Part shown: positions 5,856 to 54,266 of the stretch, one piece after another
How positions within the stretch are numbered: position 1 is the stretch's first letter
How the letters are laid out: each line of letters opens with the position of its first letter
Virus record (IMG/VR): IMGVR_UViG_3300033156_000272
Location: 1-64,000 of that record
Source: a virus
Reading direction: 5' to 3' (one strand)
DNA length: 64,000 bases
The notes under the pieces: generated by a model
What the model was told of the DNA's origin: nothing
Seen by the model: the letters and a program-made list of their open reading frames with translations, nothing else
The model's database searches: none
Position numbers and translations under genes: made by a program

Positions 5856-7346
5856 ATGCATAACGAAAATCAAGGAGTGAATATGCATAACGAAATCGCA
5901 TCAAGCCCTCTGGTCGAACAGATGATAATGGAAATGCAAGCATACAACAACGTAGAGACATTTGTCCGTTCGATCTTAGATATTGATTGGCTCTTCCCAA
6001 AGCAGTGGGAGATAATAAAGAACTTCTACGATCCTAAAGCAGGATTTAACGAGCTTATTATAGTTGCTGGTATGAGAAGTGGGAAGACCCTACTATCCTC
6101 TTGCATGCTGGCCTACGAGCTCTATAAACTGCTCAAACTTAACAACCCTTGTAAGCATTATGGCCTCCCGAGAGGACAGGAGATATATCTTGTTAATGTT
6201 GCGTCTTCTGCAGAGCAGGCCGCTGAAACTGTTTGGGCTCACTTCGAGGCGCGAATAGAAAACTCCGAGTGGTTCATGAGACAGCCGTGTAAAAGATACC
6301 ACGATAAGATGATATTCCCTGTTGGTGACGGAAAGATAATTGTAAAGCGCCTTCACAGTAACTCTGCGAGTCTAGCAGGAAAGACTATCAAGGCCGTTAT
6401 TTGCGACGAACTGTCCAGATTCAAAGTGAGCGGTAGCAAGCTTTCTGCAGAGATGGTATGGGAGACACTTTCACGTGGTACTCGAACATTCAAGAAAGAA
6501 GGTATAAAAATCAGCATTTCCTCCCCTCTTTACGTGGATGACTATCACATGCAACTATACAATCAGGGGCAGAATATCGACAGCACACTCACTTACCAAT
6601 TAGCTACGTGGGAGATGAATCCACAGATCACTAAAGAAGATTTGGCAGATGAATTTCAGCGTAACCCTGAAGCAGCATGGCGTGATTACGGAGCCATCCC
6701 TCAGTCCGCATATGACGTCTACTTCAAGGAGATAGATAAGGTGCGGCAATGTGTACTTCCCGAACGCAATGCCCCGATAGTGGGATACCAGCTCAGCAGG
6801 GATATCGCCCCGTCGAGAGATTTTCTGTACGTCTTGGCGGGCGACCCTGCACTTAGAAATGATGCATTCGGGATGGCACTAGGCTATATGGATCATAATA
6901 CTGGGATAATAGAAATTGTGTGGGCCTGGGGATTTAAGCCCGATACTATGAATGACCAACGAGAAGTTGATGCATTTGCAATAAAATCTTTCATCACACA
7001 AGTGATTGAAACATACCCAGTGAGCCACTATCTCACTGATACCTGGAACTTCCCAGAAACCATACAGGCGATACGACAAATGGGAGTTGAGGTAGTGCAG
7101 CACGTCGTAAAGAAAGAAGATTATGATGTGCTTAAAGAGGCTTGCTATACTAACAGAATTCATCTTCCAAATAACCAAATACTACTCAAGGAAATAGAAC
7201 AGCTCGAAATTCTCTACGGGAGAAAAATAGACCACCCCAGAACAGGGAGCAAGGATATCGCGGATGCGGTTGCTCAGATTGCGTCTTTCGTTAGGCAGGC
7301 GCCTGCACCAGCAGATATCCCGCTAATGGTCTTCGCTGAGGTGTGA
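5856..7346 (+). CDS. terL: Terminase large subunit
   Basis: 496 residues. The packaging ATPase shows Walker A (VAGMRSGKTLLSS, near residue 75), Walker B (KAVICDELSRF, near 185) and a C-terminal RNase-H-like nuclease whose acidic residues are in YVLAGDPALRNDAFGMALGY, HYLTDTWNF and GSKDIADAVAQIA. It drives DNA into the prohead through the portal and cuts the concatemer. The start region is duplicated in frame: GTGAATATGCATAACGAAA occurs twice 27 bases apart, each with a ribosome site, so translation may begin at 5856 or 5883. It overlaps the portal gene's leader. Confidence 0.9.
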   Translation: MHNENQGVNMHNEIASSPLVEQMIMEMQAYNNVETFVRSILDIDWLFPKQWEIIKNFYDPKAGFNELIIVAGMRSGKTLLSSCMLAYELYKLLKLNNPCKHYGLPRGQEIYLVNVASSAEQAAETVWAHFEARIENSEWFMRQPCKRYHDKMIFPVGDGKIIVKRLHSNSASLAGKTIKAVICDELSRFKVSGSKLSAEMVWETLSRGTRTFKKEGIKISISSPLYVDDYHMQLYNQGQNIDSTLTYQLATWEMNPQITKEDLADEFQRNPEAAWRDYGAIPQSAYDVYFKEIDKVRQCVLPERNAPIVGYQLSRDIAPSRDFLYVLAGDPALRNDAFGMALGYMDHNTGIIEIVWAWGFKPDTMNDQREVDAFAIKSFITQVIETYPVSHYLTDTWNFPETIQAIRQMGVEVVQHVVKKEDYDVLKEACYTNRIHLPNNQILLKEIEQLEILYGRKIDHPRTGSKDIADAVAQIASFVRQAPAPADIPLMVFAEV

Positions 7347-7348
7347 AA

Positions 7349-8569
7349 ATGGGAATATTTAATAGGAAGTCATTGAATGGAGCAGCCAAAGTTATGCTTG
7401 GCGATGGATTTGCCGTTGCACCACTGAGCATAGGATTAGCTTGCAGAGATACAAAACCAGTTGAGAAGTATACTGATTATTGGACCATATATCAGAAAAT
7501 ATCGATCGTGCAACAGTGTATCAACTATGTAGCCGGCTTTGCTATCAGGAAAGGGTATATTATAGTATCGGATAGCGAGAGTGCAAGAGACGAAATTTTA
7601 CAATTCAACTCTGACGTGAATATTGATGAATTCATACACACAAACATAATTAAGCGAGACGTATACGGAAGAGCTGCATGGCAAATTAAGAAAAGTAGGA
7701 CTTCCCCCTGGGAGCTTATAGAACTTCAGCACAGACTCATTAAGCCATTCGTGAATCAGGTTACCTTCGTTACAGAATATTACACATATCAATATGCAAA
7801 GGGCGGAAAGATACCCACTGACCAAGTGTTCTATTGGCCGAGGTACCCAAGACCCCAATATAAGGTTGGCATGAGTGCTATAGAGCCAGTTATAGGGGCC
7901 GTAAATACCAAAAGGAATCTTGAGCGCGATATCCTAGAAGCAAGTAAGAGAATGTGGGCTCCGATGGCAATATTCCAGGTGGACACAAGTGCATACCTCA
8001 CCGAAGAGGATAAGAAGAGTGCACTTACGAACTTTCAAAGTCAGTTACAACCAGGGAGGAGCATTGTAGTTAATCAGTCAATAGAGGGCAAGCCAATAGA
8101 CCTCCACGTTGATATGAATGGTCTCATTCGTGCGCTGGAAAAATCGGATGAAGAAATTTCTGGCAATTGGGGGATGCCCAAAGCACTACTATCTCGCGAA
8201 AAGACCCTTAATCGTGCAACTCTCGATACTTCTCTCAAGGCTCTATATGAGGGGCCTGTTGCTACTGTTCAGAAGCAAATAAAGAGAGAGATAGAAAAGC
8301 AACTATATATTCCTTACCTTAAACAACGGGGGTATAAAGATGTTAAAGTTGAACTCGTGTGGAATCCTGCTGCTACCGACGAGCCAGAATTCGTCAAGGC
8401 AATACTCAAAGGAATTGCAGATGGGGTCCTCACAAAAGAAGAAGGGTTCAATCTTCTTGGATGGATATACACACCACAAGAAGAAAGTGATCCAGAAGAA
8501 AACGATCCAGAAGAAAACGAACCAGAAGAAAACGAACCACCAAAAAATGAACCACCAAAAAGTGAGTAA
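7349..8569 (+). CDS. Portal protein
   Basis: 406 residues, directly after the large terminase. The start ATG has GAGGTG before it. The body resembles phage portals: an N-terminal wing (YWTIYQKISIVQQCINYVAG), a region with WELIELQHRLIKP, a stem segment (ALEKSDEEISGNWGMPKAL) and a helical C-terminus. The last 30 residues are an acidic proline tail made by 15-base tandem repeats (PEENDPEENEPEENEPPKNE, bases about 8488-8560). It forms the dodecameric ring at one capsid vertex. Confidence 0.85.
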   Translation: MGIFNRKSLNGAAKVMLGDGFAVAPLSIGLACRDTKPVEKYTDYWTIYQKISIVQQCINYVAGFAIRKGYIIVSDSESARDEILQFNSDVNIDEFIHTNIIKRDVYGRAAWQIKKSRTSPWELIELQHRLIKPFVNQVTFVTEYYTYQYAKGGKIPTDQVFYWPRYPRPQYKVGMSAIEPVIGAVNTKRNLERDILEASKRMWAPMAIFQVDTSAYLTEEDKKSALTNFQSQLQPGRSIVVNQSIEGKPIDLHVDMNGLIRALEKSDEEISGNWGMPKALLSREKTLNRATLDTSLKALYEGPVATVQKQIKREIEKQLYIPYLKQRGYKDVKVELVWNPAATDEPEFVKAILKGIADGVLTKEEGFNLLGWIYTPQEESDPEENDPEENEPEENEPPKNEPPKSE

Positions 8570-9390: not shown

Positions 9391-11370
9391 ATGGCTCTGC
9401 GATTCACCCGACACAGAATAGACTATAACGACTCAGTTACTACATTCAATATTTCTCAGGATAATGGGAGCGACACTACTGGCGATGGATCCTCGGGGAA
9501 TCCGTTCGCTACAATTCAGAAAGCAGTAGATATTATCGAGGCCGGATCTGGAGGAGGATATATCATCATTGACCAGTCTGTAATCCATCAAGATGTTAAA
9601 GTTGGTGAGAATAACCCAAATACAAAAATAAGCATCAATGCATATCATACTGCGATTACTGCTGATGCGCATATAGACAATCTAACCATGTTTGAAAACG
9701 TTTACATACAATTAAATAACATGACTGTTTATCAGCTAATTGAAGATCCCAGTGTAACTACAAGATGTATTATAGTAATGGAAGAAGGATTGATCAGTGA
9801 AAGTCTACCAACTACGCATACAAACTACTTTCTCTATGAGACCAAATTTAACTGGAACACCTTCATGGACCAACTAGACCAAGCCATCACAAATGGAAAT
9901 GAGGTTGTTGGTATTGCCGTGTCTAATATATCGGGTGGCCGGCAGGGAGAATCATACTTTTTCACCAACAATAATTTTCTTGACATGAGAGGAGTACAGA
10001 TTAAGAACGGGGCTGCACCGACAGATAATCTGGATTACACAACGATGAAGTATGTTGATGATGAGATTGCTGTTTTGGCCGGTGCACTGATTTTACAAAG
10101 CGGGTGGGATGCAAATACGAATACACCCGACTTGACACTTCCGGGTCCTAAAATCGTTGGTCATTATTATATTGTAACCACTGAAGGCGCTACCGATCTT
10201 GATGGTATCACTGATTGGAAGGTTGGTGATTGGGCCATTTATACAGTATCCGGTTGGATTAAAGCGGATCATACGGATCAGGTATCATCGGTTTTTGCCA
10301 GAAAAGGTGCGGTAGTAGCCGCAGCTAGTGATTATGATGCTAGTCAAGTAGATAACGATAGTGGTGTGGCTGGTGCATTTGTTTCCGATGCACTTGACAC
10401 GCTCGCAGCCATGAATATATATAATCCGAAGTTCTGGTGGGTTTCACCTGATAGCGGCAGTGCTATAGAGGATGGAACGGAGCAAAACCCCTACAAGACT
10501 ATCCAGGCTGCAATCGATATGGCAGCAACTAAAGGTGTTATCATGCTCGACCAGACCGTAGATAACTCAGAGAATATAACTGTAAACAAACCATTATTTA
10601 TATTCGGGCACTCTGCACCAATTGGCGAAATCTGGAATATTGGTACGCTGACCTTAAGCGGGTTCGGTGCCAATGCTTACTTGAATAATGTGGCCGTGAA
10701 AAAGTTCGCAGAGAGCAGTGCTACGGTATGTAATGTATATATGGAACAGGGGAGGATTTACGAGCAGCCTCTTGCTCCATTGCCCAATGTCAAACTTAAG
10801 TTGTACGGAACCACTGTAGAAACTAGCTTTGACGATACTGACTATAGTGCTGTGTATGGCTGGTCAATGACCACAAATGGGGAAATAACTTGGTACAATG
10901 GATTCTCTATGAACGATACAAGAATCACCGATGTTCTCGATCCGATAACCCCGCAAGGCGTAGCCACCAAGAACTACGTGGATATTGAGGTATCTTCCAC
11001 GCAAATCATTCAAGATAGCGATGCAACAGAGTTCACGACCATGTCTTCTACATTCACCCAGGCCAAACGATTTACCAAGACTACATTGGCCAAAACATAC
11101 CTTGTGAAAATGGGTTGCGAAATATATCAATCTGGCAAGAACAAGGGCGTAACTCTTCGGGCAGAAATTGATGATACCATCCATGTATTTCAGGATTGGA
11201 AGCACATCGGAGAAAACGAGTTCATAAATGAGACAGCAATGGCGTATGGAGAAATCGTTGTCACGTTGACTGCGGCAGCCCACAACTTTGATTTTGACTT
11301 GCGACGGGAGAAGGGTGGCACAGCAAAAGCCAAGAATTTCAGACTGATTATTACCGAGGTGATAGAATGA
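9391..11370 (+). CDS. Tail-fibre or spike-like protein with two beta-helix modules
   Basis: 659 residues. Two segments have the start of a right-handed beta-helix of the pectate-lyase type: DGSSGNPFATIQKAVDIIEA near residue 30 and DGTEQNPYKTIQAAIDMAAT near 365. Between them lies a phage-fibre-like insert (FARKGAVVAAASDYDASQVD). The C-terminal 110 residues look like a trimerising beta-sandwich. In other viruses such proteins bind or cut surface polysaccharide. No catalytic residues can be claimed here. It overlaps the next gene by four bases. Confidence 0.65.
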   Translation: MALRFTRHRIDYNDSVTTFNISQDNGSDTTGDGSSGNPFATIQKAVDIIEAGSGGGYIIIDQSVIHQDVKVGENNPNTKISINAYHTAITADAHIDNLTMFENVYIQLNNMTVYQLIEDPSVTTRCIIVMEEGLISESLPTTHTNYFLYETKFNWNTFMDQLDQAITNGNEVVGIAVSNISGGRQGESYFFTNNNFLDMRGVQIKNGAAPTDNLDYTTMKYVDDEIAVLAGALILQSGWDANTNTPDLTLPGPKIVGHYYIVTTEGATDLDGITDWKVGDWAIYTVSGWIKADHTDQVSSVFARKGAVVAAASDYDASQVDNDSGVAGAFVSDALDTLAAMNIYNPKFWWVSPDSGSAIEDGTEQNPYKTIQAAIDMAATKGVIMLDQTVDNSENITVNKPLFIFGHSAPIGEIWNIGTLTLSGFGANAYLNNVAVKKFAESSATVCNVYMEQGRIYEQPLAPLPNVKLKLYGTTVETSFDDTDYSAVYGWSMTTNGEITWYNGFSMNDTRITDVLDPITPQGVATKNYVDIEVSSTQIIQDSDATEFTTMSSTFTQAKRFTKTTLAKTYLVKMGCEIYQSGKNKGVTLRAEIDDTIHVFQDWKHIGENEFINETAMAYGEIVVTLTAAAHNFDFDLRREKGGTAKAKNFRLIITEVIE

Positions 11371-12773
11371 GCTGGACAATACAATACACAATAGACCCCG
11401 TGGACACTGATAGTTTGTGGGATGAAATAGAAGCCGAAACGGCAATCACCAAGGCGCTTGAGGACATTCGTGTTTACGGGACCGGGGCAAACAATACTAC
11501 AGTTCAGTTCGACCTCGAATTATTGGGGGCTGAAATAACCGCTTTGGATGCTGTGGTTTTAGCGCATGCGGGTACTCCGCCGACAGTGTATGACCTATTG
11601 TGCTTAACGTGTTTTGAACACATTCATGACACCGGATTGATTGCTCCAAGAGATTGTCCGTTTTGTGGTTGTTTAGATTGTCTTGTAGAGTTTAGCGCAC
11701 TGGCTAAGAAGTCTAATATCGTTTATGTTGACGCTTACAGAACCGATGCGTATTTACCAGATGGAACTGAATTAAGACCGTACAAAACCTATTACGATGC
11801 AGTGGTAACCATAACCGATAACTCGCCCACTAATAGATACGTGATTAAGATACTCGGCAAAACAACAGAACCAGACCTTGACCTTCCAATCAAGAGTTGC
11901 GTGTTCATTGAAGGTTATGAAATGCAGGCATCGGTGATAAAGGTCCAGCCTCTTAGAAGTCTTATATGGGATGCCAGAGATGGTGAAGGACAGGACAATG
12001 GATACACTGCGGCCAAAGATGTGACGATCAGCAGGACAGACTACTCAACCACAGACCTAATAAAAATCCTTAGAACTACGATAACCCCCGCTGATAACTG
12101 GTGCATATTTGAGATAATAAATAGTAGTATTAGGGGGGACGTGGTATTCCACGGCAAGGGAATGAGCAGAGATTACTTCCAGGTGTACAATTCTGTATTT
12201 CTGGCAGGGACTCTCGACATCAAGAATTGTTACACGTTATATCATGGTGTGTCATCCTGGGGCAATTCAAAGTGTGTAGCAGACAATCCAACCTATGACT
12301 ACTATGGATATGGATGCTACTATTTCTCAGAATCAAGCCAGTTCTACGGAACAACGCACATCGAAACTATTGGAGCGGGAGACGGATTATATGCAATGCT
12401 TGTTGGCTCGTGTATTCAAGGTGCGACCACTATTGACAAAGTAGCAAACTCAAGTTTATATCTCGAATACGACAGCGTATCACGTCCCCAAGCTCTTACA
12501 GAGACAGGCAATCCAACGCACATTCCTCTGACAAAAGCAATTACCATAGATAATGATTCAAATGTTTCCGGGGGTACTGTCAAAGACGCACTCAACACTC
12601 TATTGGATGGGGTGGTTCAATCGGATGTAATATTAGCAGGAGAGACACCCGTTGATGACGATGTAAGTGGATGGGCAGATAAAGATAAAGGGCATGGCAT
12701 AGGAACGACATCAAGAGAGTTCTACATGGTCAAGCGTGGAACAACAGTAAAATGGATGGAGATGACTGTATGA
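11367..12773 (+). CDS. Fibre-like protein with cysteine-rich knuckle and beta-helix part
   Basis: 468 residues. Near residues 70-110 there are cysteine pairs (LCLTCFEHIH, DCPFCGCLDCLVE) that probably bind zinc. From about 120 a beta-helix-type segment begins (DGTELRPYKTYYDAVVTI). The C-terminal 45 residues (LAGETPVDDDVSGWADKDKG onward) match the C-terminus of the protein at 12926, so the two share a terminal module. It is probably part of the surface or fibre apparatus. Confidence 0.6.
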   Translation: MSWTIQYTIDPVDTDSLWDEIEAETAITKALEDIRVYGTGANNTTVQFDLELLGAEITALDAVVLAHAGTPPTVYDLLCLTCFEHIHDTGLIAPRDCPFCGCLDCLVEFSALAKKSNIVYVDAYRTDAYLPDGTELRPYKTYYDAVVTITDNSPTNRYVIKILGKTTEPDLDLPIKSCVFIEGYEMQASVIKVQPLRSLIWDARDGEGQDNGYTAAKDVTISRTDYSTTDLIKILRTTITPADNWCIFEIINSSIRGDVVFHGKGMSRDYFQVYNSVFLAGTLDIKNCYTLYHGVSSWGNSKCVADNPTYDYYGYGCYYFSESSQFYGTTHIETIGAGDGLYAMLVGSCIQGATTIDKVANSSLYLEYDSVSRPQALTETGNPTHIPLTKAITIDNDSNVSGGTVKDALNTLLDGVVQSDVILAGETPVDDDVSGWADKDKGHGIGTTSREFYMVKRGTTVKWMEMTV

Positions 12774-12925: not shown

Positions 12926-14227
12926 ATGGGACACACAGACAAGCACGCCGCCAAACACGGCGTATCGGAAGAGGACGACTTACACGGCGTAATAGACCAT
13001 GGGAGCATCCAAGGATTGGGCGACGATGACCACTCGCAGTATCTGCTAGCAGATGGAACGAGAGCGTTATCCGGGGAGATAAGTGCAGGGTCGAACAAGA
13101 TTACCAGTCTTGGCGATGGAACTGCGGCTTCACAGGATGCCAGTACAGTCAAGCAGATGGAAGATTATGTGTCTGCAATAGTACAGGCAATGGTTAGCAA
13201 GGATAACGTCATAGCGGCCACGACTGGTGCGTTACCAGCCAATACCAGAACTGGTGATGTATTGACAGCTTCGGCCAATGGCGCATTTCCAACTATAGAC
13301 GGTATCGCTGCGGCTCTTAACCAAGAATATCTGGTCAAGGACGAGGGCGGTGTAGCGTCACACATCAATGATGGTATTTACACGCTTACAACTTTGGGAG
13401 ATGCAGGGACGCCATGGGCACTGACCAGGAGAGCGGACCTTGATGCCGGAGACAGCGCAGCAGGCGCGTTCCTTGCAGTCGAGCAGGGTACGGTTAATGG
13501 TGATGCAACATTCCGGTGTATCAACAACGCTGGTACTGATGTTGTGAACACCGACGTTCTTGAGTTTAAATATTGGGGCGCAACTATAGATCATGGAAAC
13601 CTGTTAGGTCTAGCAGACGATGATCACTCGCAGTATCACAATGACACAAGAGGCGATGCTAGATATTTCCAGCAATCGGAGCACATAAACTCTTCAGCAG
13701 GGGCCGGAGATGCCGGAAAGCCTGTCAAATTAGATGCTGATGGACAAATAGATGCTACCATGGTAAACGATGCTGATATAGACCATGGAACAATCGGTGG
13801 ACTAGCGGACGATGACCATACACAGTATCACAACGATGCTCGTGGAGATGATAGGTATTACACCGAGACTGAACTTGATGGTGGTCAACTGGACAACCGA
13901 TATTTCACCGAAACGGAGCATTTGAATGTATCCGCCGGTGCTGGTGATGCAGGAAAGCCAATCAAGCTGGATGCCGCCGGACACGTAGACTCTACGATGG
14001 TGAATGACGCCGATATAAGCCACGATAACATAGCTAATCAGAGGACATCGGGGGCTTTCAATCTCCACCTGAAAGCGGATGTTACACTTGCAGGAACAGC
14101 ACCAGTACAAACAGACTTCACAGGATGGGCTGTCGGAGAGACTGGTATGGGTATTGGCACAGACAGTACGGTTTGGCTAGTGAGAAAGACAGGCGCAACT
14201 GCAATTGTTTGCGTACAGCTAACATAA
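12926..14227 (+). CDS. Tail fibre with repeated DHGxLxGLxDDDHxQY motif
   Basis: 433 residues. A histidine and aspartate-rich motif recurs at least three times: IDHGSIQGLGDDDHSQY near residue 30, IDHGNLLGLADDDHSQY near 220 and IDHGTIGGLADDDHTQY near 285. SAGAGDAGKPVKLDADGQID and its twin form another repeat. This motif is common in phage fibre proteins, where histidines can hold metal ions along a trimeric shaft. The C-terminal module (LAGTAPVQTDFTGWAVGETG) matches that of the 11367 protein. Confidence 0.75.
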   Translation: MGHTDKHAAKHGVSEEDDLHGVIDHGSIQGLGDDDHSQYLLADGTRALSGEISAGSNKITSLGDGTAASQDASTVKQMEDYVSAIVQAMVSKDNVIAATTGALPANTRTGDVLTASANGAFPTIDGIAAALNQEYLVKDEGGVASHINDGIYTLTTLGDAGTPWALTRRADLDAGDSAAGAFLAVEQGTVNGDATFRCINNAGTDVVNTDVLEFKYWGATIDHGNLLGLADDDHSQYHNDTRGDARYFQQSEHINSSAGAGDAGKPVKLDADGQIDATMVNDADIDHGTIGGLADDDHTQYHNDARGDDRYYTETELDGGQLDNRYFTETEHLNVSAGAGDAGKPIKLDAAGHVDSTMVNDADISHDNIANQRTSGAFNLHLKADVTLAGTAPVQTDFTGWAVGETGMGIGTDSTVWLVRKTGATAIVCVQLT

Positions 14228-16427: not shown

Positions 16428-16792
16428 GCGATCTATTAACTATGTTGAGCGCGAGTGCTGGAGGTGGCGGAACGGCAGGATGCATACTAATAATATACTT
16501 AAAATCCCTACAACGCCGTCTAGAAACAGCAGAATTAGATATTAAGTCGTGTAAGGATACCCTGAATAACAAGGTTAACTCTACACATACTAGAATCACC
16601 AAGGTTGAAAAAGAAATAGATACACGAATTGACATTCTCAAAGACCACATCGATGATGAATTCGTCAAACAGACCAAAATCACAAATAAAATAAACGCCA
16701 GACTTGGTCGTATGATTGGCTTCCTCATATATAAAGACAAGGATGCAGAAAAGGCGGCCCTAATACTAAAGAACGGCTATCTGGAGGAGTGA
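16424..16792 (+). CDS. Membrane-anchored coiled-coil protein
   Basis: 122 residues. One N-terminal membrane segment (GGGGTAGCILIIYLKSLQ) is followed by a long coiled coil (RLETAELDIKSCKDTLNNKV and onward to DHIDDEF). The layout resembles phage XhlA-type or lysis accessory proteins. It overlaps the preceding gene by four bases. Its role in lysis or in virion attachment is inferred. Confidence 0.5.
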   Translation: MSDLLTMLSASAGGGGTAGCILIIYLKSLQRRLETAELDIKSCKDTLNNKVNSTHTRITKVEKEIDTRIDILKDHIDDEFVKQTKITNKINARLGRMIGFLIYKDKDAEKAALILKNGYLEE

Positions 16793-16797
16793 GAAAG

Positions 16798-18801
16798 ATG
16801 AAGAGTATTACAGACGATATAGATATAGAAAGTCTCAACAACAGAGAGCTCCTATTATTTCACTTCTTAGCTCATCAAGCATGGGGGAGGATGTATAGAG
16901 GAGAAACATCCATCTCCGAAGAAAAAATAATAGAGATCCATAATAAAATATTCAAGCAGATGCACTTTAGGAAAATCCCACATCGCGATCATAGTAGCCT
17001 CGACGCAACAGTAGAAGTGATGGAATTGTCAATACCTCCAGACCCAATAGTTCTCTCAATAACATACTATGAATACGAAGACGGCGCTCTAAAAGCCGTA
17101 GAAGATGCACTATCGATGGTCCCCGAAGATCTCGTGTATCGTGTAGAGCTCTCGTTCACCGAACCCCCGAGGGAAAAACCATATGACTTCCTCATAATGG
17201 CACACCACAACTCTGACTCTCTTCATCTAGACTTCATAATCCCCCACATAGACGAAGGATTTAAGATCGATGCCAATACAGAAACAAATAAGGCAATTCC
17301 TTCCGAGCAAGAACTCTTCGAAAAGATGGTCTCAAACTCTACGTTCGGCTGGCCACTTACAGAAGAGCGTGTGAGTTGCGTTCTGTGGGACAAAGAAGAC
17401 TCCCGCGAATCATCTGGCCTCACTTCCCTAAAGCACAAAGGACAGCTTTCTCTCGGAGCACACAAGCCCGACTTCTTTGAATACTTCCTCGACGATTCCA
17501 CCAGGGTGATATTTAAATTTATCCCGAAGGAGCGCGACTCTAAGGGGACTGGCTTCTGGCTCACGTGGGTCCCTGAAGACCAAACACCATACGTACTGAC
17601 CGAATCCGCGATTACAAAGAGCTGGCTCCCTCAGGGCGGTATTAGTGCACTTCCTCTCTGGCTAAAATCTCGGATACCAGATTCTCTGGCCTATTGGAAC
17701 ATGGAAGGAGAACGCGCACTCGACGCTAGGAAGGAACTATCGTTGCTTTACAAGATGAGCGACATAACAATATTAGAATCCCGCGACAACCACTACATTG
17801 GAATGTGTGACAATGGGAATAGGTATATAGTCAGAAACGACGAAGGACACCTCCTTACGATCGGCGCAACATACAAGAGATTTGAATTGACAGACTTCCC
17901 TCATGAGAAAGCGGTTCAAAACAAACACTTTACACTCCAACATCACAGATGGGAAGACCCTTTCCACCTAAATCAAACTTCTGTAGAACACTGGGATCTC
18001 ACCCTGGCCGGCAGGATGTACGTACTTGAACACAACCCAATTGAGTCAGAAACTATTGCGCTGCGCAGAGCACCATATAATCATCTCTGGGTTAACATGG
18101 GGAGGGGTGGCGAACAGGAAGTCCCGCCCAAGTCAGCGGGCAACCCTACGAGGAACCCGGCCTACGTAAGATTGGTTGATGAAGGCATTGCAACCATTCT
18201 CAAAGGAACCAATGGCCACATGAAGGTAGAATTCAAAGGAGAAAGTCTTAATGGAGTGTATTCTTTCGATAAAAATCCTAATGCTAATGTGTGGAATGTT
18301 AAAAAAATAGTGAGCACAAAACTATCAATTAGTGTGCCATCCTCATCGACCAACAAGCTATCATATGATCACCTCCCCGATGGCACCCTTCGCGTAACAG
18401 GTGCAATCCTGTCAGAAGGAGTATGGCACGGACAGGGTGGCACTTTCTTCTTTAGTCGCGACGTCATAACAAGAGACTATCCTCGCCTAAACCAGAACAA
18501 ATTCCCCCTCGCTGTGGGGTCACACGAGTTACCGCAAAATACTATTGATGGTTATCCCGAACAACTAGAGCTCCTGGAAGATGGCACCATATGGTCAAGC
18601 TGGATAATAACCGACAAACAAAAGGTAGTTGATGTCATCTCTGGGGACTATGAAGATGGCGGAGGATTCTCGGTGGAAGTAGATGTCATCGCCGATCCGG
18701 TCCGCGAAATAATCGAAGAAATACTACATTGGACCCGCACGAATTTGGTAGACAATCCAGCGTGTCTTGTGTGTACGGTCGATCAAGTACAAGCAACATA
18801 A
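16798..18801 (+). CDS. Capsid maturation protease fused to two LigD phosphoesterase-like modules
   Basis: 667 residues; start at 16798 with GGAGG upstream. Residues about 120-140 (DFLIMAHHNSDSLHLDFIIP) and 380-420 (FTLQHHRWEDP, then VEHWDLTLAGRMYVLEHNP) both match the signature of the LigD 3'-phosphoesterase fold (F-x-x-x-x-H and HxDLxL). A third part (residues about 560-640) resembles the XkdF/S78 type prohead protease: AVGSHELPQN gives the His, DGGGFSVEVDV the Ser. It precedes the scaffold and capsid genes, as expected for the protease. Whether the ligase-type domains are active or merely structural is unknown. Confidence 0.65.
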   Translation: MKSITDDIDIESLNNRELLLFHFLAHQAWGRMYRGETSISEEKIIEIHNKIFKQMHFRKIPHRDHSSLDATVEVMELSIPPDPIVLSITYYEYEDGALKAVEDALSMVPEDLVYRVELSFTEPPREKPYDFLIMAHHNSDSLHLDFIIPHIDEGFKIDANTETNKAIPSEQELFEKMVSNSTFGWPLTEERVSCVLWDKEDSRESSGLTSLKHKGQLSLGAHKPDFFEYFLDDSTRVIFKFIPKERDSKGTGFWLTWVPEDQTPYVLTESAITKSWLPQGGISALPLWLKSRIPDSLAYWNMEGERALDARKELSLLYKMSDITILESRDNHYIGMCDNGNRYIVRNDEGHLLTIGATYKRFELTDFPHEKAVQNKHFTLQHHRWEDPFHLNQTSVEHWDLTLAGRMYVLEHNPIESETIALRRAPYNHLWVNMGRGGEQEVPPKSAGNPTRNPAYVRLVDEGIATILKGTNGHMKVEFKGESLNGVYSFDKNPNANVWNVKKIVSTKLSISVPSSSTNKLSYDHLPDGTLRVTGAILSEGVWHGQGGTFFFSRDVITRDYPRLNQNKFPLAVGSHELPQNTIDGYPEQLELLEDGTIWSSWIITDKQKVVDVISGDYEDGGGFSVEVDVIADPVREIIEEILHWTRTNLVDNPACLVCTVDQVQAT

Positions 18802-19259: not shown

Positions 19260-19294
19260 GGATGGAAGATTATATTTTAGAGGAGTGTGATAAA

Positions 19295-20398
19295 ATGCCC
19301 TACCCGAATGAACACGCAGCAAGAATAAACGATCCGGATAAGTATGATTCTATTCGCAGAGAGAACGACCATTTTGGTTCTGGTATAGATGTTATATGGG
19401 GGATTATAGATGGTAAGGCTGAAATACAAGCTATTAGGTTCGACAAAAATAAATTTACGGTTTCTGAGGCAAAAAAGTGGCTTCGTGATCACGATTTCTC
19501 TCCTATCTTATTTGAACCTGCTAGTGCAAGTCAAGGTTTATCGGAAAATGTAATTACTGCCCTCCCCACACAGGTTAAATACGGTGTTCGTCATAGTAAT
19601 ATTGTTAGTATGACTAAGAACGAAAAACCCCTAAAGGTTAGTGGATGTGAACTCGCACAAGTTATCCTAGTACCAAAGGGCTTCCAGGCTGAATCATTTA
19701 CAGAGGGGACCACTACTGTTGACACCGTTGATTTCCCTCCGAACCTATATCCATCTCCAGATTCAGAGAAGCCTTTTGTAATACCAGGAGCAAACTTTGA
19801 TTATATCGAGTTCGTTCCGCCAGGCTTCAAGGAGGAGTCTAAAATGGCAGACAACCCCGAAGGTGCGCCGGCCCCAGAGGATGCTCCGACTGAGGTACCA
19901 CCTCAGAAAGAGACCCCTACCAAGGAGCCAGCGGCCACAGAAAATATATCTGAGGAACTCTCAGCCGCCAACGCGAAAGTAACTGAGCTCGAAGCTGCAC
20001 TTGCAGTTAAAGTTGATGAGCTTGGAATACTTCGCAAGGAACTTGAGAGCACCCAGAAAGAACTTTCTGAGTTGCAGAAATTGCAAAAGGAAGCTCAGGA
20101 AGCTAGTAGGCAGGAGCAACTCTCTGCACTTGCCGAAAAGCGCATAGAAGCAGGAATTGTTGGTCGTGAAGATCTCGACAAAGAGATTGTGCGACTTGGA
20201 GCACTCAGTGATGAGACACTCGCAGTTCTTGAAGAAGACGCCGACCACCTCTTGCCCGAGACGGAAGGAGATCCGGTTGAGCTGTCTGGAGTACCGCCTG
20301 TTGACGAAACTGACGAAGATAAAGCCCGTGAGGACTTTCGCGAGTTAGTGTTCGGACATAGAGGGGCCCCAAAAGATAAAGACGACAAACCGGAGTGA
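19295..20398 (+). CDS. PYPNEHAARI-domain protein with scaffold tail
   Basis: 367 residues; the ATG at 19295 has GAGGAG eight bases upstream and is preferred to 19262. The N-terminal 85 residues (MPYPNEHAARINDPDKYDSI, FDKNKFTVSEAKKWLRDHDF) match a module common in phage head proteins and prohead proteases. A linker with Pro/Glu-rich sequence follows, then a coiled coil (LEAALAVKVDELGILRKELE) and an acidic end typical of scaffolds. An internal start at 19844 probably yields a separate scaffold. Confidence 0.65.
   Translation: MPYPNEHAARINDPDKYDSIRRENDHFGSGIDVIWGIIDGKAEIQAIRFDKNKFTVSEAKKWLRDHDFSPILFEPASASQGLSENVITALPTQVKYGVRHSNIVSMTKNEKPLKVSGCELAQVILVPKGFQAESFTEGTTTVDTVDFPPNLYPSPDSEKPFVIPGANFDYIEFVPPGFKEESKMADNPEGAPAPEDAPTEVPPQKETPTKEPAATENISEELSAANAKVTELEAALAVKVDELGILRKELESTQKELSELQKLQKEAQEASRQEQLSALAEKRIEAGIVGREDLDKEIVRLGALSDETLAVLEEDADHLLPETEGDPVELSGVPPVDETDEDKAREDFRELVFGHRGAPKDKDDKPE
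19844..20398 (+). CDS. Nested scaffold protein (internal in-frame start)
   Basis: 184 residues in the same frame as the larger gene. A strong ribosome site AAGGAGGAG (19829-19837) stands seven to eight bases before ATG 19844. The product begins MADNPEGAPAPEDAPTEVPP and contains the coiled coil and acidic C-terminus. This matches the lambda C/Nu3 arrangement, where the scaffold is made from an internal start of a larger protein. The internal site is visible; its use is inferred. Confidence 0.6.
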   Translation: MADNPEGAPAPEDAPTEVPPQKETPTKEPAATENISEELSAANAKVTELEAALAVKVDELGILRKELESTQKELSELQKLQKEAQEASRQEQLSALAEKRIEAGIVGREDLDKEIVRLGALSDETLAVLEEDADHLLPETEGDPVELSGVPPVDETDEDKAREDFRELVFGHRGAPKDKDDKPE

Positions 20399-20403
20399 GA
20401 TAA

Positions 20404-20799
20404 ATGGCTCTTGGAGATATAGTCGTGGCTGGTCAGGCGCCAATGCTTATACTGACACCCGCTGATGCGAAAGTGGGTGTGGATGTCGCAATTGGTGATG
20501 TGGTCAAGTACGACACAGATGGATGGCAGGTTGCGGCTGCAGCAGATGTTGCTGGTCAGCTCGCAGTTGCCTTGGATGCAGTAGTCATTGCGGATACTGA
20601 CAGGACTATGCGTGTTCTGTTGATAGGTACCGTTGTGGTGAAAAAGACAGCTGGCGCTGCAATTGCAGGTGGCCAGGCTGTAGAAGCAGGTGCCACTGGT
20701 GCTGTAATTGCGTGGGGAGGTATAAATGCCATCGTTGGTCTTTGCACTGAACCAGCTCTGCTTGCAGATACCGTAGTGGAAATACAGACGAGGTTCTAA
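20404..20799 (+). CDS. Probable capsid decoration (cement) protein
   Basis: 131 residues of beta-rich sequence, Ala/Val/Gly-rich (ALGDIVVAGQAPMLILTPAD, VVKYDTDGWQVAAAADVAGQ, AGGQAVEAGATGAVIAWGG). It resembles DUF2190-type and other trimeric capsid-cement proteins of phages, which bind at the capsid's threefold sites. It lies between scaffold and capsid genes, the standard position for such a protein. Confidence 0.65.
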   Translation: MALGDIVVAGQAPMLILTPADAKVGVDVAIGDVVKYDTDGWQVAAAADVAGQLAVALDAVVIADTDRTMRVLLIGTVVVKKTAGAAIAGGQAVEAGATGAVIAWGGINAIVGLCTEPALLADTVVEIQTRF

Positions 20800-20813: not shown

Positions 20814-21623
20814 ATGGGAAAAATTCTAGAACCAACAGATTTGTCGGATATAATGAAACCCGAAGTCATCGTGGAGGAAATTGTAGGTCTTGCAAGACCT
20901 ATGTACGTTCTCAGAGCGTTGTGTAAGGTTTTCCAGTTGGATGAACTCGAGGCAAAAGTGCCAACTGCCACCAAATTTACTGGACAGAAGAAAGTAAAAC
21001 CTATGGAAAAGGTCAAGCTGGACAGTTCTACCTGGGGAGAAATTCCTGTAGACTGCTACAAAAATTGTGTCAACTTTGCACTGGCATTTGAGACCACACA
21101 GAAGTCCAGGTGGGATCTAATACGCATCCAGGCGGATGAATCTGCGAAGACCATTGCACGAATGGAAGATGAGGATATACGTGATGTACTTGTTACTCTC
21201 GTTGCCATTGCTGGTAGCGATTGGAAAACGTCATCAAACGATCCCATGGTTGATATCATGGCTGCCATAACCGCTATCATCGATAATGGTTATGACGCAG
21301 ACAAGATAGCAATGTCGGGTTCTGCATATGCTGCAATGGTATCAAATCCGAATATCAAGAACACTTTCGAAAGAGGTGCCTTGGTGTCTGGGAAGATACC
21401 ATCAATAGCTGGACTGCAGGTCTTATATTCTTCGACCATAACTGCTAAGGAAGCTTATGTTGTCGATAGTATGCACTGTATACTGTTGGCGGACGGGCCC
21501 GCAGCCAAGGAAGACTATCATGGAGAAGGAAGCTTCATGCAGGGTTTTGCTGTTGCGAAGTTCCTCGATGTGGTCAAGATAAATGACGACGCTGGACGTA
21601 GAATAACCGGAATTCTGCCGTAG
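20814..21623 (+). CDS. Major capsid protein, HK97 fold
   Basis: 269 residues. Position after scaffold and decoration genes, and visible HK97 features: an N-terminal arm, an E-loop-like region rich in Lys and Thr (TKFTGQKKVKPMEKVKLDSS), a long spine-type helix (KTIARMEDEDIRDVLVTLVA) and a P-domain with PMVDIMAAITAIIDNGYDAD and KIAMSGSAYAAMVSN. The small size is like those of some compact HK97-type capsid proteins and encapsulins. It ends with a beta-rich A-domain. Confidence 0.8.
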   Translation: MGKILEPTDLSDIMKPEVIVEEIVGLARPMYVLRALCKVFQLDELEAKVPTATKFTGQKKVKPMEKVKLDSSTWGEIPVDCYKNCVNFALAFETTQKSRWDLIRIQADESAKTIARMEDEDIRDVLVTLVAIAGSDWKTSSNDPMVDIMAAITAIIDNGYDADKIAMSGSAYAAMVSNPNIKNTFERGALVSGKIPSIAGLQVLYSSTITAKEAYVVDSMHCILLADGPAAKEDYHGEGSFMQGFAVAKFLDVVKINDDAGRRITGILP

Positions 21624-40872: not shown

Positions 40873-41604
40873 TTATTCACAATCCAGTAGGCGATCATAT
40901 AATAATGGGTCATTTGTATCGTTTTTCTCGAATGCTTCACTTCTAAACCTACACGAGTCACACTTCCCGCAACACTTCCGGCCTCCAGAGTAACAGGACC
41001 AGGTGTGTTCGTATGGAACTCCGAGCTCAATTCCTTTCTTGACAATTGCTTGTTTATCCATGTTCATCAGAGGTGTGAGAATCTTGATAGGATTTCCTTC
41101 TATTCCTCTCTTGTTTGCAAGCTTGGAGAGTTCGTTCCATTTCATAATGAATTCTGGTCTACAATCAGGATAACCACTGAAATCGATAGCATTAACTCCG
41201 AGGTATATTGCCCTAGCATTTATGGTTTCTGCATAAGAGAGACATATAGCAATAAATATGTTATTCCTTCCAGGAACGTAGCTTATAGGAATACCACCAT
41301 CATACCCATCAGTTGGAACGGTTAACTTCTTATCTGTAAGTGCACTTCCGCCAAATTCTCCGAGAAACTTGATATTTATGATTTTGTGGTGTATCCAATA
41401 ATCGTGTGCTAGTTGTTTTGCTTTCTTGAGCTCTACTTTGTGTCTCTGTCCATATGAAAACGTTATCGCATGAACCAGATCCGCAGGATAATTGTGTCTC
41501 ACTATTCCGAGTACAGTTGCACTATCTAATCCGCCAGACAAAACCACAACTACTGGGGGTGTATCTATTTCTATACACTTTCCGATTTTTTCTGCTGTCT
41601 CCAT
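40873..41604 (-). CDS. queC: 7-cyano-7-deazaguanine synthase QueC
   Basis: 243 residues; AGGAGG precedes the ATG at 41604. It makes preQ0 from 7-carboxy-7-deazaguanine with ATP and ammonia. The PP-loop SGGLDSATVLGI is near residue 25, YGQRHKVELKKA follows, then PGRNNIFIAICLSYAE and LGVNAIDFSGYPDCRPEF, and the zinc site CCGKCDSCRFR near the end. All expected parts are there and length is normal. Together with QueE and MptA/FolE2 it forms a preQ0 pathway. Confidence 0.92.
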   Translation of the reverse strand: METAEKIGKCIEIDTPPVVVVLSGGLDSATVLGIVRHNYPADLVHAITFSYGQRHKVELKKAKQLAHDYWIHHKIINIKFLGEFGGSALTDKKLTVPTDGYDGGIPISYVPGRNNIFIAICLSYAETINARAIYLGVNAIDFSGYPDCRPEFIMKWNELSKLANKRGIEGNPIKILTPLMNMDKQAIVKKGIELGVPYEHTWSCYSGGRKCCGKCDSCRFRSEAFEKNDTNDPLLYDRLLDCE

Positions 41605-41645
41605 CAATCATCCCTCCTTACTATTGCCTCAAACATTGCGTTCAT

Positions 41646-42470
41646 TCACTCCAGCTCCTTGTCGTTTAACATATGTGCGATAGCAATTGCATCGTGTGCG
41701 TGTATGCTCTCTACACTAGTTACTTGTACTTCTGCGGCTAGTATCTTAAATCCTTTGTTGGAGAACCTGATCTCGAGTGCATTTACTATCTCTCTGGCAG
41801 CATCCTCCACGAATCGCGGATTCTCGTAGGCCTCTTCTGTTACGGCTTTCTCATCAACTCTCTTGAGTACTGCGTATACTTGTGCACTTGCACACTTGGA
41901 TGCGACTTCATATACATCCTCAATTCCTATTACTGTACTTCCAGCGAGTTGGTGAATAGTGACATTAATGATGGCTCTTTGATTGTGTGCACCGTAGTCC
42001 GATATCTCTTTGCTACAGGGGCACAATGTCGTTGCTGGCATGCTCACTGTCATTAGTTGAACATTTCCATTTACGGAGAAGGATACGTCCATAGGTATTG
42101 CTCCTTTCTCTCCGGTTATAGGTGCTGTTGTTTCTACGAAGTAAGTGAATCCCATAGATATAGTGCCATCGGCAGCTTCTTGTTCTTGTAGTATCTTTAT
42201 GAGGATGTTATTAAGCTCACTTAAGTCAATATCCTGGAAATCCTTGCTATGAAGAGTCTTAACAATACGACTCATGTGTATTCCTCTCTGGTCTTTTGAC
42301 AATCCCACTATGACAGATATGTCTGCTTCTACTTGTTGCATGCCACCACGTGCAAAGTCTTTTACTCTCACGGGTAGTCTCACGTTCGAAACGCCAGCCT
42401 TCACTGGAATTTTTATTGTTGGTTCCGTTACCTGTACATCAGGGAGCTCATATATATCTTCTTCGGTCAT
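41646..42470 (-). CDS. GTP cyclohydrolase of the MptA/FolE2 family
   Basis: 274 residues with ACGGAGGTAAAATA before the ATG. Family marks: VGLSKDQRGIHMSRIVKTL and TLCPCSKEISDYGAHNQRA (catalytic Cys and metal site), EDVYEVASKCASAQVYAVLK, and NPRFVEDAAREIVNAL. In archaea MptA opens GTP to the pterin precursor used in methanopterin and 7-deazaguanine synthesis; FolE2 is the bacterial relative. It supplies the first step of the virus pathway. I cannot decide between MptA (cyclic phosphate product) and FolE2. Confidence 0.88.
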   Translation of the reverse strand: MTEEDIYELPDVQVTEPTIKIPVKAGVSNVRLPVRVKDFARGGMQQVEADISVIVGLSKDQRGIHMSRIVKTLHSKDFQDIDLSELNNILIKILQEQEAADGTISMGFTYFVETTAPITGEKGAIPMDVSFSVNGNVQLMTVSMPATTLCPCSKEISDYGAHNQRAIINVTIHQLAGSTVIGIEDVYEVASKCASAQVYAVLKRVDEKAVTEEAYENPRFVEDAAREIVNALEIRFSNKGFKILAAEVQVTSVESIHAHDAIAIAHMLNDKELE

Positions 42471-45185: not shown

Positions 45186-47606
45186 TTATGCGAATGCAAA
45201 CAGTTTCGTTTGCTTCTGGTCTTGTAATATCATTTTGGTAGTGGTATCAATAACATCAAGGATCGGGTCTATCTTATTCTCTATGATCTTCTCTGTCTGT
45301 AGTTTCCAGTCTACCTTGTCTCTCCACGAGATGTTGTACTCGTCTGTCATTTCGAACTCTTTATTCTTTTTGAGTCCGATCCAATCAACATCATATATAT
45401 TGGTTTTCAGCTGAATTCCCTTCTCTTCACAGGCCTTAGGAGCTGTAACATACAGTCTTACACGCCACCAGAACTTCTTCTGCAACAGTACTTTGTAGTA
45501 TCTCTCACCACTGAGAGGAGTTTTGTTGAATATATGATCGTAGTAATATAATCCCTTCTTGCTACTTGGTCTATAGTACTCTTCTAGTGGCTTTGCAACC
45601 TTTTGCGGGAGTCCTATCGACTCGAGTGGTTCAGAAGATGCCTTGGCAACTAACTCCTTGATAAAAATGCTAATCTGATTTTCTCCTGCCCCACTGAGTA
45701 TATAATCAAGTAGCTGTTTTTGTGCATATCTACTCCACTTAGCAGCATCGGAACGACGTGCCTCAAATCCTTTGATGTCGAGTTCTCTGATGGCTGCTCC
45801 TTTATTCCATACACGCATCCCGGCGTATCTCTTCTTCTTTCCGTGGAAGAGAATTCGTTCATACACCTTCTCAAACTCTATACGAGGCACGAATCTCCAG
45901 CTTTCTTCTACTGCCATCTGATCAAATAGCGAATTAACAGTTTCTTCTATCTTCTTCCCCTTCTCTACAGGATTCTCTCCAACCTCAATCAATACGGAAT
46001 CTGTATCCCCATATATTGGATTGTATCCCAGCTCTTTAGAGAACTCCATGGTCTTTAGAATCATCTTTCTGCCCATGAAAGTTGTACACTCTGAAATTTG
46101 CGGAACGTACAATCTACTAAATGGAAACGCAAACTGCCCATACATAGCTGCAATTAGTTGCTTAATTCCATACTGCATGTTATCGAGTATATTGTACTTG
46201 TTAATGAGGTCCTTGCTCATCGGGTTCTTATTGAGATCCAATTTAAGCATAGACATATCATCCTTTACTTTCATGCGTGCTACAGACAATCGCTCGAAGA
46301 TTCGCGGAACAATACCAGGCGTTTTCATATCAACCCATACATTAGCAATCTTCTTCCATCCAGCAATCTCTTTTGTACTGAGAGTCTCTGGAGATAGATT
46401 ATTGCTCCTTATTATAGTAGGATACATCTGCGAGAAGTCGAGTGCGATAACGTTATCATACAACCCTTTCTTTGGTTGAAATACGAATGCACCCTCATAC
46501 TTAAGTCTCTCTTCTTTATGTCGGCGGGCGAGTGCATAATGTCCGTGGAATTCGCGGAGAAGCAGTATCTCCACGTACCTCGTTGTCGTTAGTGTGTCAT
46601 TAAGACTACACCCTACAACTCTGCTGACGCCATCAAACTGATTGACTATACCGTGCTTGTTGTCAATGGCCCAAGTGCGTTCTACATCACGTTTATTGTA
46701 TTCGAGAATTATGTCTATGTGTTTTCGATTCATATAATTTTCGTAATCAAAATCATCAGCTTCCATACTAACCCCATATTGATCTTCTCGCGAAGCAACC
46801 CCTTCTAGTGTATAATCCTCAAACGTCTTTCCCTGGAAGTATTTCTTAAACCCGTCCATCAAGTCAAAGATCTGAATTCCTACTATCTTCTTGTCATTCA
46901 TTCCTGTCTCACGAATTATTCTGACGGGACTCATCCTCTCTGCTTCAACCTTGCATCTCTTTGCTCTATTGACTATTGTCTTTACGTCAAACTGAGGGTT
47001 CCACCCGATCCAAACGTCTGGCTGTTTTTCTTTGATCCAATCAATAAATGCCATGATCATGTGTCGCTCTTCACTAGGTTTACATGCAGTCATGGTGAAG
47101 TCTTCAATCTCTCCGGTATTGGGATTATGGTATTTTGCTACAATTGTAAGAATCATGTTTCTTGCTTTATCGGGGTCGGGGAATGCTCCGCGAGTTTCTA
47201 CTTCTGTATCAACGTGGACTCTTGTTAGGCGGCATTCGGGATTTTCTGCGGGTATCACATCTCCAGTATCTGTGATTTGAAATCCTGCAAATATCTTACG
47301 GTCGATGAGACATCTAATCTCGTAAAGTACGTCACTTTCAAAAGTGTATGAAAAGGTATCTCTTTTCTTAGCAACGTCGCTCGGTATTCTTGTTTCTACT
47401 TTCGAACAATTAACAATCTTGGGGCCAGACTTAGCTGTCTTAATCCCCTTATAAACCCCTCCAGGATCCTCGTAGTAAAAATACGGTGCTGGTGAATTCC
47501 ACCCAAAGCACTTCTTTTCCTTGCCGTCAGGAGAACGTCCTATGAGGAAAATAACGGGCTCGTTCTCTATGATTTTATAGCAAGAATCAACCAGTAAGTA
47601 GTTCAT
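45186..47606 (-). CDS. polB: DNA polymerase, family B
   Basis: 806 residues; ATG 47606 lies within the end of the dpdA-like gene. Exonuclease motifs HVDTEVETRG (near residue 130), GWNPQFDVKTI (near 200) and YNKRDVERTW (near 300). Polymerase motif A IALDFSQMYPTIIRSN, motif B IKQLIAAMYGQFAF, motif C IYGDTDSVLIEV. A KRYAGMRVW element (motif for primer contact) follows, and the thumb ends with the C-terminus. All catalytic aspartates are present, so both proofreading and synthesis should work. In motif B the usual Asn-Ser is replaced by Ala-Met, a variation worth checking. Confidence 0.93.
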   Translation of the reverse strand: MNYLLVDSCYKIIENEPVIFLIGRSPDGKEKKCFGWNSPAPYFYYEDPGGVYKGIKTAKSGPKIVNCSKVETRIPSDVAKKRDTFSYTFESDVLYEIRCLIDRKIFAGFQITDTGDVIPAENPECRLTRVHVDTEVETRGAFPDPDKARNMILTIVAKYHNPNTGEIEDFTMTACKPSEERHMIMAFIDWIKEKQPDVWIGWNPQFDVKTIVNRAKRCKVEAERMSPVRIIRETGMNDKKIVGIQIFDLMDGFKKYFQGKTFEDYTLEGVASREDQYGVSMEADDFDYENYMNRKHIDIILEYNKRDVERTWAIDNKHGIVNQFDGVSRVVGCSLNDTLTTTRYVEILLLREFHGHYALARRHKEERLKYEGAFVFQPKKGLYDNVIALDFSQMYPTIIRSNNLSPETLSTKEIAGWKKIANVWVDMKTPGIVPRIFERLSVARMKVKDDMSMLKLDLNKNPMSKDLINKYNILDNMQYGIKQLIAAMYGQFAFPFSRLYVPQISECTTFMGRKMILKTMEFSKELGYNPIYGDTDSVLIEVGENPVEKGKKIEETVNSLFDQMAVEESWRFVPRIEFEKVYERILFHGKKKRYAGMRVWNKGAAIRELDIKGFEARRSDAAKWSRYAQKQLLDYILSGAGENQISIFIKELVAKASSEPLESIGLPQKVAKPLEEYYRPSSKKGLYYYDHIFNKTPLSGERYYKVLLQKKFWWRVRLYVTAPKACEEKGIQLKTNIYDVDWIGLKKNKEFEMTDEYNISWRDKVDWKLQTEKIIENKIDPILDVIDTTTKMILQDQKQTKLFAFA

Positions 47607-48339
47607 CAATATCACTTGTTTCCAGTGCCTTCTGCTCTAACCACTTGGTGAGCTTAATGGCGATTGTTTTTCTAACATCATCCCAGATCCAGTTGTATTC
47701 GATATCAATATCAAGAGCATCTCTTAATATGTTGATGGAGTCGTTGTTAATTCTCTCTCGAATACAACCAATCTCTGTCGCCTTGATTGGCAGTGTTGTG
47801 TCGAAAGAGTTTGCAACTCCTCTGATGAGTGCGAACTCTTCCATGCTGTTGATCCCCAGAACATGAATTTTTGTCGGAGGGATGATTCTTCTCAATCCTC
47901 TCGCAAGTTCAACTCTGTCAAAAGGGAGGTGTTTTGGTAGTGCAAACCCGTCAACCGGATATCTATCATTATTGAGGAGGTCAGCCTTCTCCATCGCCTC
48001 TTCTGGGGTGTCTGCCCACAATGAAGCATACACAGCTATTCTGTCATCGTCTCCTAGTCGGTGATAAAATTGTGGGAGGAAGTCCCGAGTCATTTCATTA
48101 GTGAGTTCAGGCTCCTTCATCTGATCGGGAGCAATAATAGCTACACTCTTAACTCCAGCATTTAAGAGCTCTTGAGCTAGCATAATGAGTGTCATATTGT
48201 CAACAGAGCAATCCTCGTAGGCTCCGTTGTCAAGCATTACACCCTTATTCTTGTAGTCACCAAAATCGCATATTCTCGTACGCGTAGCGACCAAAAAATA
48301 AGAGTCGAAGGGGGTTGGGGTAGGTTGGTAGTACTTCAT
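47587..48339 (-). CDS. dpdA: TGT-like DpdA family 7-deazaguanine DNA transglycosylase (candidate)
   Basis: 250 residues; GAAGGATAAACTC precedes the ATG. The barrel-like order (GVMLDNGAYED near residue 35, VAIIAPDQMKEPE near 65, GFALPKHLPF near 135, HVLGINSMEEF near 165, and SFDTTLPIKATEIG near 190) fits the tRNA-guanine transglycosylase-like DpdA group, which exchanges DNA guanine for preQ0. The Asp of SFDTT or DNGAY could be the nucleophile and base ligand. The gene is between PolB and the RecA-like ATPase, and preQ0 synthesis genes are in the same region. Homology needs a profile search to confirm. Confidence 0.6.
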   Translation of the reverse strand: MKYYQPTPTPFDSYFLVATRTRICDFGDYKNKGVMLDNGAYEDCSVDNMTLIMLAQELLNAGVKSVAIIAPDQMKEPELTNEMTRDFLPQFYHRLGDDDRIAVYASLWADTPEEAMEKADLLNNDRYPVDGFALPKHLPFDRVELARGLRRIIPPTKIHVLGINSMEEFALIRGVANSFDTTLPIKATEIGCIRERINNDSINILRDALDIDIEYNWIWDDVRKTIAIKLTKWLEQKALETSDIDELLTG

Positions 48340-54242: not shown

Positions 54243-54266
54243 TTTAACCACCTACTGCTAATTTCA

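Follow-up and report, generated by a model that had tools for sequence, protein, structure and literature searches.

Polyvalent proteins are large multidomain virion proteins of phages that are predicted to be packaged and injected; they are mainly interpreted as conflict effectors, and their assemblin-like peptidase, when present, is always C-terminal and probably processes the protein during assembly (PMC5512222). The 3'-phosphoesterase (PE) of Pseudomonas aeruginosa LigD binds metal through His42, His48 and Asp50 and contacts phosphate through Arg52, His84 and Tyr88 (PMC8656161). Here we describe a viral gene whose predicted product brings these two kinds of protein together. The window that we analyzed is a stretch of 64,000 nucleotides (positions 1 to 64,000 of IMG/VR virus record IMGVR_UViG_3300033156_000272, which has 87,093 bases), and the gene, present as a single copy in that record, occupies 16798-18801 on the plus strand. 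Translation of its open reading frame gives a protein of 667 amino acids (aa), which profile comparisons and a structural model resolve into a four-His helical domain, two tandem LigD-type PE domains (PE1 and PE2) and a C-terminal assemblin-like protease. On balance, we favor the interpretation that this is a reduced polyvalent virion protein, namely a head-maturation protease with an N-terminal DNA-end-processing cargo that would be packaged, self-cleaved and injected.

Like polyvalent proteins, the window protein combines disparate domains, is encoded among head genes and ends in an assemblin-like peptidase. It departs from them in that its cargo appears directed at the healing and sealing of DNA ends (PEs, to which relatives add ligase, PNKP and uracil-DNA glycosylase) and in that it has only three or four types of domain. 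PMC5512222 contains none of the terms LigD, glycosylase and end-joining, and the passages on ligases found in it concern RNA ligases; LigD goes unmentioned in the same group's papers on jumbo phages and nicotinamide adenine dinucleotide. Literature searches combining LigD with prohead protease, or ANMV-1 with ligase, returned no paper. Within the accessible literature, it is therefore the repair-type cargo that is new.

Searches with the window protein alone gave nothing significant in Pfam, PHROGs, NCBIfam or the sequences of the PDB; PDB matches to TcpB/TIR-like proteins (E 0.4-0.9) were taken as chance. A scan of genome contigs with the single protein found no relatives, and tblastn of its N-terminal and protease parts against phages found no matches. 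The bare H..H.D pattern appears at least once in 19% of shuffles of the protein and at least twice in 1.8%. Since this is near chance, the motif alone was left out of the evidence, which is carried by profiles. Domain hidden Markov models (HMMs) trained solely on relatives, the window sequence being excluded, scored 25.5 bits at residues 11-62, 104 bits at 203-314, 91 bits at 377-503 and 53 bits at 518-663.

PE1 spans residues 123-268 (17164..17601, plus strand) and PE2 residues 377-503 (17926..18306, plus strand). When compared with the PDB, the family profile of PE1 had 3p4h and 3p43 as its best matches and that of PE2 had 3p43 (E 1.8e-4), with archaeal LigD PEs leading. An AlphaFold2 model of residues 117-667 had a mean predicted local distance difference test score (pLDDT) of 68, with values above 80 across the second half of PE1 and the bulk of PE2. 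In Foldseek, the archaeal stand-alone PEs 3p4h (Methanosarcina barkeri) and 3p43 (Korarchaeum) and the P. aeruginosa PE 3n9b took ranks 1-3 among 350,542 PDB chains (E 3.7e-5 to 2.1e-4), sharing the PE barrel with template modeling scores of 0.78, 0.72 and 0.54, respectively, on the target. A model of PE1 alone also had 3p43 as its best PDB match (E 4.8e-3, prob 1.00). The window protein falls below detection by Pfam LigD_N, which does register in two of the related viral loci (identified here by L numbers): at PE1 of L011 (E 1.4e-5) and at PE2 of L010 (E 0.005). Foldseek, the PE1-only model and the profiles thus agree in placing both domains in the LigD 3'-phosphoesterase superfamily by their barrel fold, and alignment of the two profiles with hhalign (prob 96.7, E 4e-10) identifies them, at the sequence level, as homologous duplicates.

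The motif AHHNSDSLHLD at residues 135-145 of PE1 places H136, H143 and D145 in register with the metal triad, and QHHRWEDPFHLNQTSVEHWDLTL at residues 381-403 of PE2 keeps Q381, H383, H398 and D400. PE2 therefore retains a full equivalent of His42/His48/Asp50. The metal-site half of PE1 (residues 123-150) reached 5.9 bits with the leave-window-out HMM, which is not significant alone, so the first motif is in register yet eroded. Further likeness to LigD PEs lies in the QxH...HxD arrangement of the PE2 triad and in a C-terminal half of the form 'DxGxxxI...kGxxlkGxw'. Unlike LigD PEs, the window modules form a tandem duplicate within a virus head protein, have Arg52 replaced and, in PE2, have the first His separated from HxD by a spacer about nine residues longer.

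The C-terminal domain (residues 518-663; 18349..18786, plus strand) was assigned by HMM, hhalign and Foldseek as an assemblin-like prohead protease of the S78_2/XkdF-like kind. It contains SHE at 575-577, GFSVE at 623-627 and a C-terminal LVDNPACxxC; S625 is predicted as the likely nucleophile and H576 as the likely catalytic His. In hhalign, the C-terminal profile aligned with the XkdF set (prob 69.4, E 4.3e-5), with the His and the GFS nucleophile matched. Foldseek gave weaker PDB matches, after the three PEs, to the protease of Kaposi's sarcoma-associated herpesvirus and to T4 gp21, and its matches among viral models were mainly prohead proteases. The domain shares with XkdF/Peptidase_S78_2 and DUF2213 proteases the strand pattern, the His...GFSxE signature and a position between portal and scaffold or major capsid protein, and differs from them in standing behind PE domains, in its conserved NPACxxC tail and in scoring below Pfam cut-offs. 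The 87 kb record yielded no further S78 or S78_2 protease, so the window protein is the strongest candidate for this virus's maturation protease. Fold, His/Ser site, head-cluster position and status as the sole maturation protease found all fit an assemblin-like protease; the direct Pfam scan was negative. A sequence-only reading of the gene had quoted the four motifs above, which are present where it placed them, and had proposed two LigD-PE-like modules followed by an S78/XkdF-like protease. Profile, structure and family evidence agree with this proposal, and profile searches and structure prediction recovered both the PE fold and the protease core from the regions it named (100-260, 370-500 and 550-667), the boundaries being slightly off from those found here. 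The metal-binding His and Asp residues whose presence it had asked to be checked are found in both modules, with the catalytic half of PE1 eroded and the phosphate-contacting Arg lost from both.

The N-terminal helical domain (residues 11-65; 16828..16992, plus strand), recognized by the leave-window-out HMM, has the family motif LxxxHxxxH...LHxxIxxEMxRRGxxHxSPL, in which H, H, H, R and H are invariant (n=9 sequences). It is common to many family members and sometimes occurs twice per protein (L011). Pfam Pyr_excise matched this type of domain weakly in L011 and L015; an identity as a T4 endonuclease V-type glycosylase was rejected, as a profile search of the PDB returned no endonuclease V.

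A family search with a profile made from the window protein and the ANMV-1 protein as a pair recovered some 20 separate viral loci, besides the ANMV-1 virus, and two further matches that came from genome bins. The members range from 300 to 1800 aa and are encoded near portal or capsid genes. The sequence-only reading had considered the fusion odd; the fusion is real, but the protein is, by sequence comparison, a reduced member of a larger repair-polyprotein family that this reading had overlooked. Most long relatives contain an ATP-dependent DNA ligase (DNA_ligase_A_M), with KxDG present in the ligase members. Other domains are a PNK3P-type phosphatase (L005, L016), uracil-DNA glycosylase with NUDIX (L026), Dam methylase (L022, L026, L027), a 2H domain (L005), metallo-beta-lactamase (L014, L029) and a RaSEA-type radical SAM domain (L015). 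Where a relative has no fused ligase, its record can still contain a separate ligase gene, as is the case for L030 (just upstream) and L008. The fusion of PE2 to the protease recurs in L010, L011, L015, L021, L022 and L027, the last of which has Peptidase_S78_2 at the C-terminus of its PE-containing protein (E 1e-24), and the protease is the next gene in L005, L016, L020, L030 and L031. The closest described relative is the 'ATP-dependent DNA ligase' AJP62006 of the ANMV-1 virus (KP703175, a virus of uncultured archaea), which adjoins the portal and is homologous to window residues 202-503 (22.7%, E 5e-11). Unlike the window protein, it has a Pfam DNA ligase before the PE pair and has lost the PE2 triad, and its protease is a separate gene (DUF2213). 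Two polyproteins stand out for their composition. The 1800 aa protein at L022:4311-9710 has a D12-class adenine methylase between its nucleotidyltransferase (NTase) and ligase regions and a divergent protease-like end. That at L026:5067-9272 joins NUDIX, an NTase-like region, DNA ligase, uracil-DNA glycosylase, PE1 and Dam within 1402 aa, and the gene after it encodes a methyltransferase fused to a head-maturation protease.

The window gene belongs to the head cluster of a virus with a contractile tail, where it lies in the interval from the portal to the major capsid protein. It is one open frame from the ATG at 16798 to the stop at 18799-18801, with no internal stops. A likely ribosome-binding site, GGAGG (16783..16787, plus strand), lies ten bases 5' of the ATG, and the preceding gene's stop codon overlaps it; translation could alternatively begin at an in-frame GTG at 16789. 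Also on the plus strand are the portal protein (7343..8569; Pfam Phage_portal E 2e-15, phrog_2662), a probable scaffold-like coiled-coil protein encoded after the protease gene and ahead of the capsid genes (19262..20398, assigned by position and coiled-coil-type matches only), a capsid cement or decoration-type protein (20404..20799; phrog_673 E 3e-6, Phage_cement_2 E 8e-4, the latter below cut-off) and the major capsid protein (20814..21623; phrog_1650 E 1.2e-15). A neck protein gene of the head cluster starts at 22084 and that of the tail sheath at 25463. The phrog_1650 capsid family is found in the window virus and in L010, L011, L012, L021 and L029, and the order portal, PE protein, major capsid protein recurs in relatives. 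Two long proteins with repeated segments (9391-11370 and 11367-12773) and a 'DDHSQYHNDARGDARYF'-repeat protein (12926-14227) look fiber-like by eye; their location between the portal and protease genes is an unusual site for fiber or decoration genes.

We propose that the protein would co-assemble into the prohead as a protease precursor and that the protease would then free itself and cut the scaffold during maturation. The PE part would be retained in the head and enter the cell along with the DNA, where it may bind or clean 3' ends bearing phosphates, ribonucleotides or damaged termini. A ligase could then seal or circularize the genome ahead of replication; this ligase would be the host's, because the window record encodes none. 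The ligase, PNKP phosphatase and uracil-DNA glycosylase fused or adjacent to the relatives' proteins make a role on DNA ends as infection begins more likely than one in packaging, and our analysis suggests that these viruses pack repair cargo inside the particle. Catalysis by the window protein is plausible.

Several observations weigh against this proposal. The Arg52 position is occupied by I147 in PE1 and T402 in PE2, so that this phosphate ligand is lost in both, and equivalents of His84 and Tyr88 are not assignable in the window modules. PE2 may thus be weak or inactive, and the modules are classed as PE-like folds, not as proven PE enzymes. PE1 is only 30-34% identical to the PE1 of relatives, compared with 44-53% among those relatives. 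In our alignments the full PE2 triad is confined to the window protein, L010, L011, L012, L015 and L030, and it is gone from about 9 of 15 relatives examined, which retain the fold. The PE2 modules of L012 and L030 also still have the Arg. Neither DNA ligase (PF01068) nor Ku was found in the 87 kb record, which may be incomplete; it thus lacks the combination of PE, ligase and Ku in one genome that would mark LigD-type non-homologous end joining.

The eroded PE1, the replaced Arg52, the triad losses among relatives and the absent ligase are also what speaks for the main rival explanation, in which the PE folds have lost catalysis and persist in a structural or DNA-binding capacity, either as a core or scaffold arm recruiting the protease into the prohead or as a binder of packaged DNA. 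We regard this as rather unlikely, although it is the strongest competitor. The window PE2 keeps Q381, H383, H398 and D400 and is the module that best matches the nearest relative, L010 (42% identity), which is unexpected under relaxed selection. Together with the low identity of PE1, this indicates that constraint seems to have shifted from PE1 to PE2 in the window lineage. Among the relatives, conservation across the three domains compared is highest in PE1, with HxD kept and Arg almost always present, and the KxDG of the ligase is intact. In a PE1 tree, the branch leading to the window sequence is very long (2.8 changes per site), and the tree does not resolve where that sequence belongs. 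In L029 (4488-8561), an in-frame insertion of ~31 aa interrupts the active-site loop of PE1 (HHYR-...-GRSVHTD) and is possibly a mobile-element remnant or a real insertion.

Alternatively, the PE cargo could act in the infected cell against host defense or host nucleic acids, for example on nucleotide signals or modified ends, rather than in repair of the viral genome. The interpretation of polyvalent proteins mainly as conflict effectors in PMC5512222 points this way, as do Dam and NUDIX in the relatives and the window's QueC and FolE2 genes, which fit counter-defense of the DNA-modification type. We nevertheless consider it improbable, since ligase, PNKP-type phosphatase, uracil-DNA glycosylase and PE form a coherent DNA-repair set and no effector domains of the toxin type were seen among these proteins. 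It is less probable still that the processing of DNA ends by the PE domains takes place while the genome is packaged, when terminase cuts, and not after injection. The gene does lie in the head cluster near the portal gene, but PE substrates are 3'-phosphate or ribonucleotide ends whereas terminase leaves 3'-OH ends, and the ligases that accompany PE in relatives would be useful chiefly at the site of end joining, the new cell. Finally, fast sequence divergence and an environmental contig might raise the suspicion of an assembly or frameshift artifact, but this is refuted by the recurrence of the PE2-protease order in six relatives and further contradicted by the uninterrupted frame and a second contig with an identical C-terminal stretch of 212 aa.

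The window also contains, on the minus strand, genes for QueC (40876-41607), a FolE2-type GTP cyclohydrolase (41649-42470), a QueE-like radical SAM protein (56990-57730) and a possible TGT/DpdA-like protein (47590-48339), the last recognized by eye only, with no Pfam match. This set makes up a 7-deazaguanine pathway, whose purpose is probably DNA modification. A family-B DNA polymerase (45189-47615) and an XPF/ERCC4-type nuclease (53571-54251) are encoded as well. Together with the 7-deazaguanine pathway they point to an archaeal host, and the window virus is probably an environmental tailed virus of archaea. Queuine tRNA-ribosyltransferase-like genes or an archaeosine-type radical SAM domain accompany the repair polyprotein in several relatives (L010:3792-4775, L011:1816-4011, L021:4368-5918 and L015:2531-7687), which suggests that deazaguanine DNA modification is linked to the repair-polyprotein module.

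The general assumption is that phages depend on enzymes of the host, or on newly synthesized ones, for repairing and closing the injected genome. Our comparisons raise the possibility, which we put forward tentatively, of a widespread lineage of tailed viruses, including archaeal viruses, in which the maturation protease is the tail of a DNA-repair polyprotein with glycosylase, phosphatase, phosphoesterase, polymerase-type NTase and ligase domains. Each particle would carry this self-released kit, which would mend DNA damaged outside the cell ahead of expression of the first gene, and the window protein would represent its end-healing minimum. The family would also give a name and a function to archaeal-virus proteins whose present annotation is 'ATP-dependent DNA ligase' or hypothetical, such as that of ANMV-1. 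If true, a particle-borne, protease-processed module for healing and sealing ends would be a new answer to how viruses of slow, subsurface or otherwise harsh habitats withstand DNA damage outside the cell.
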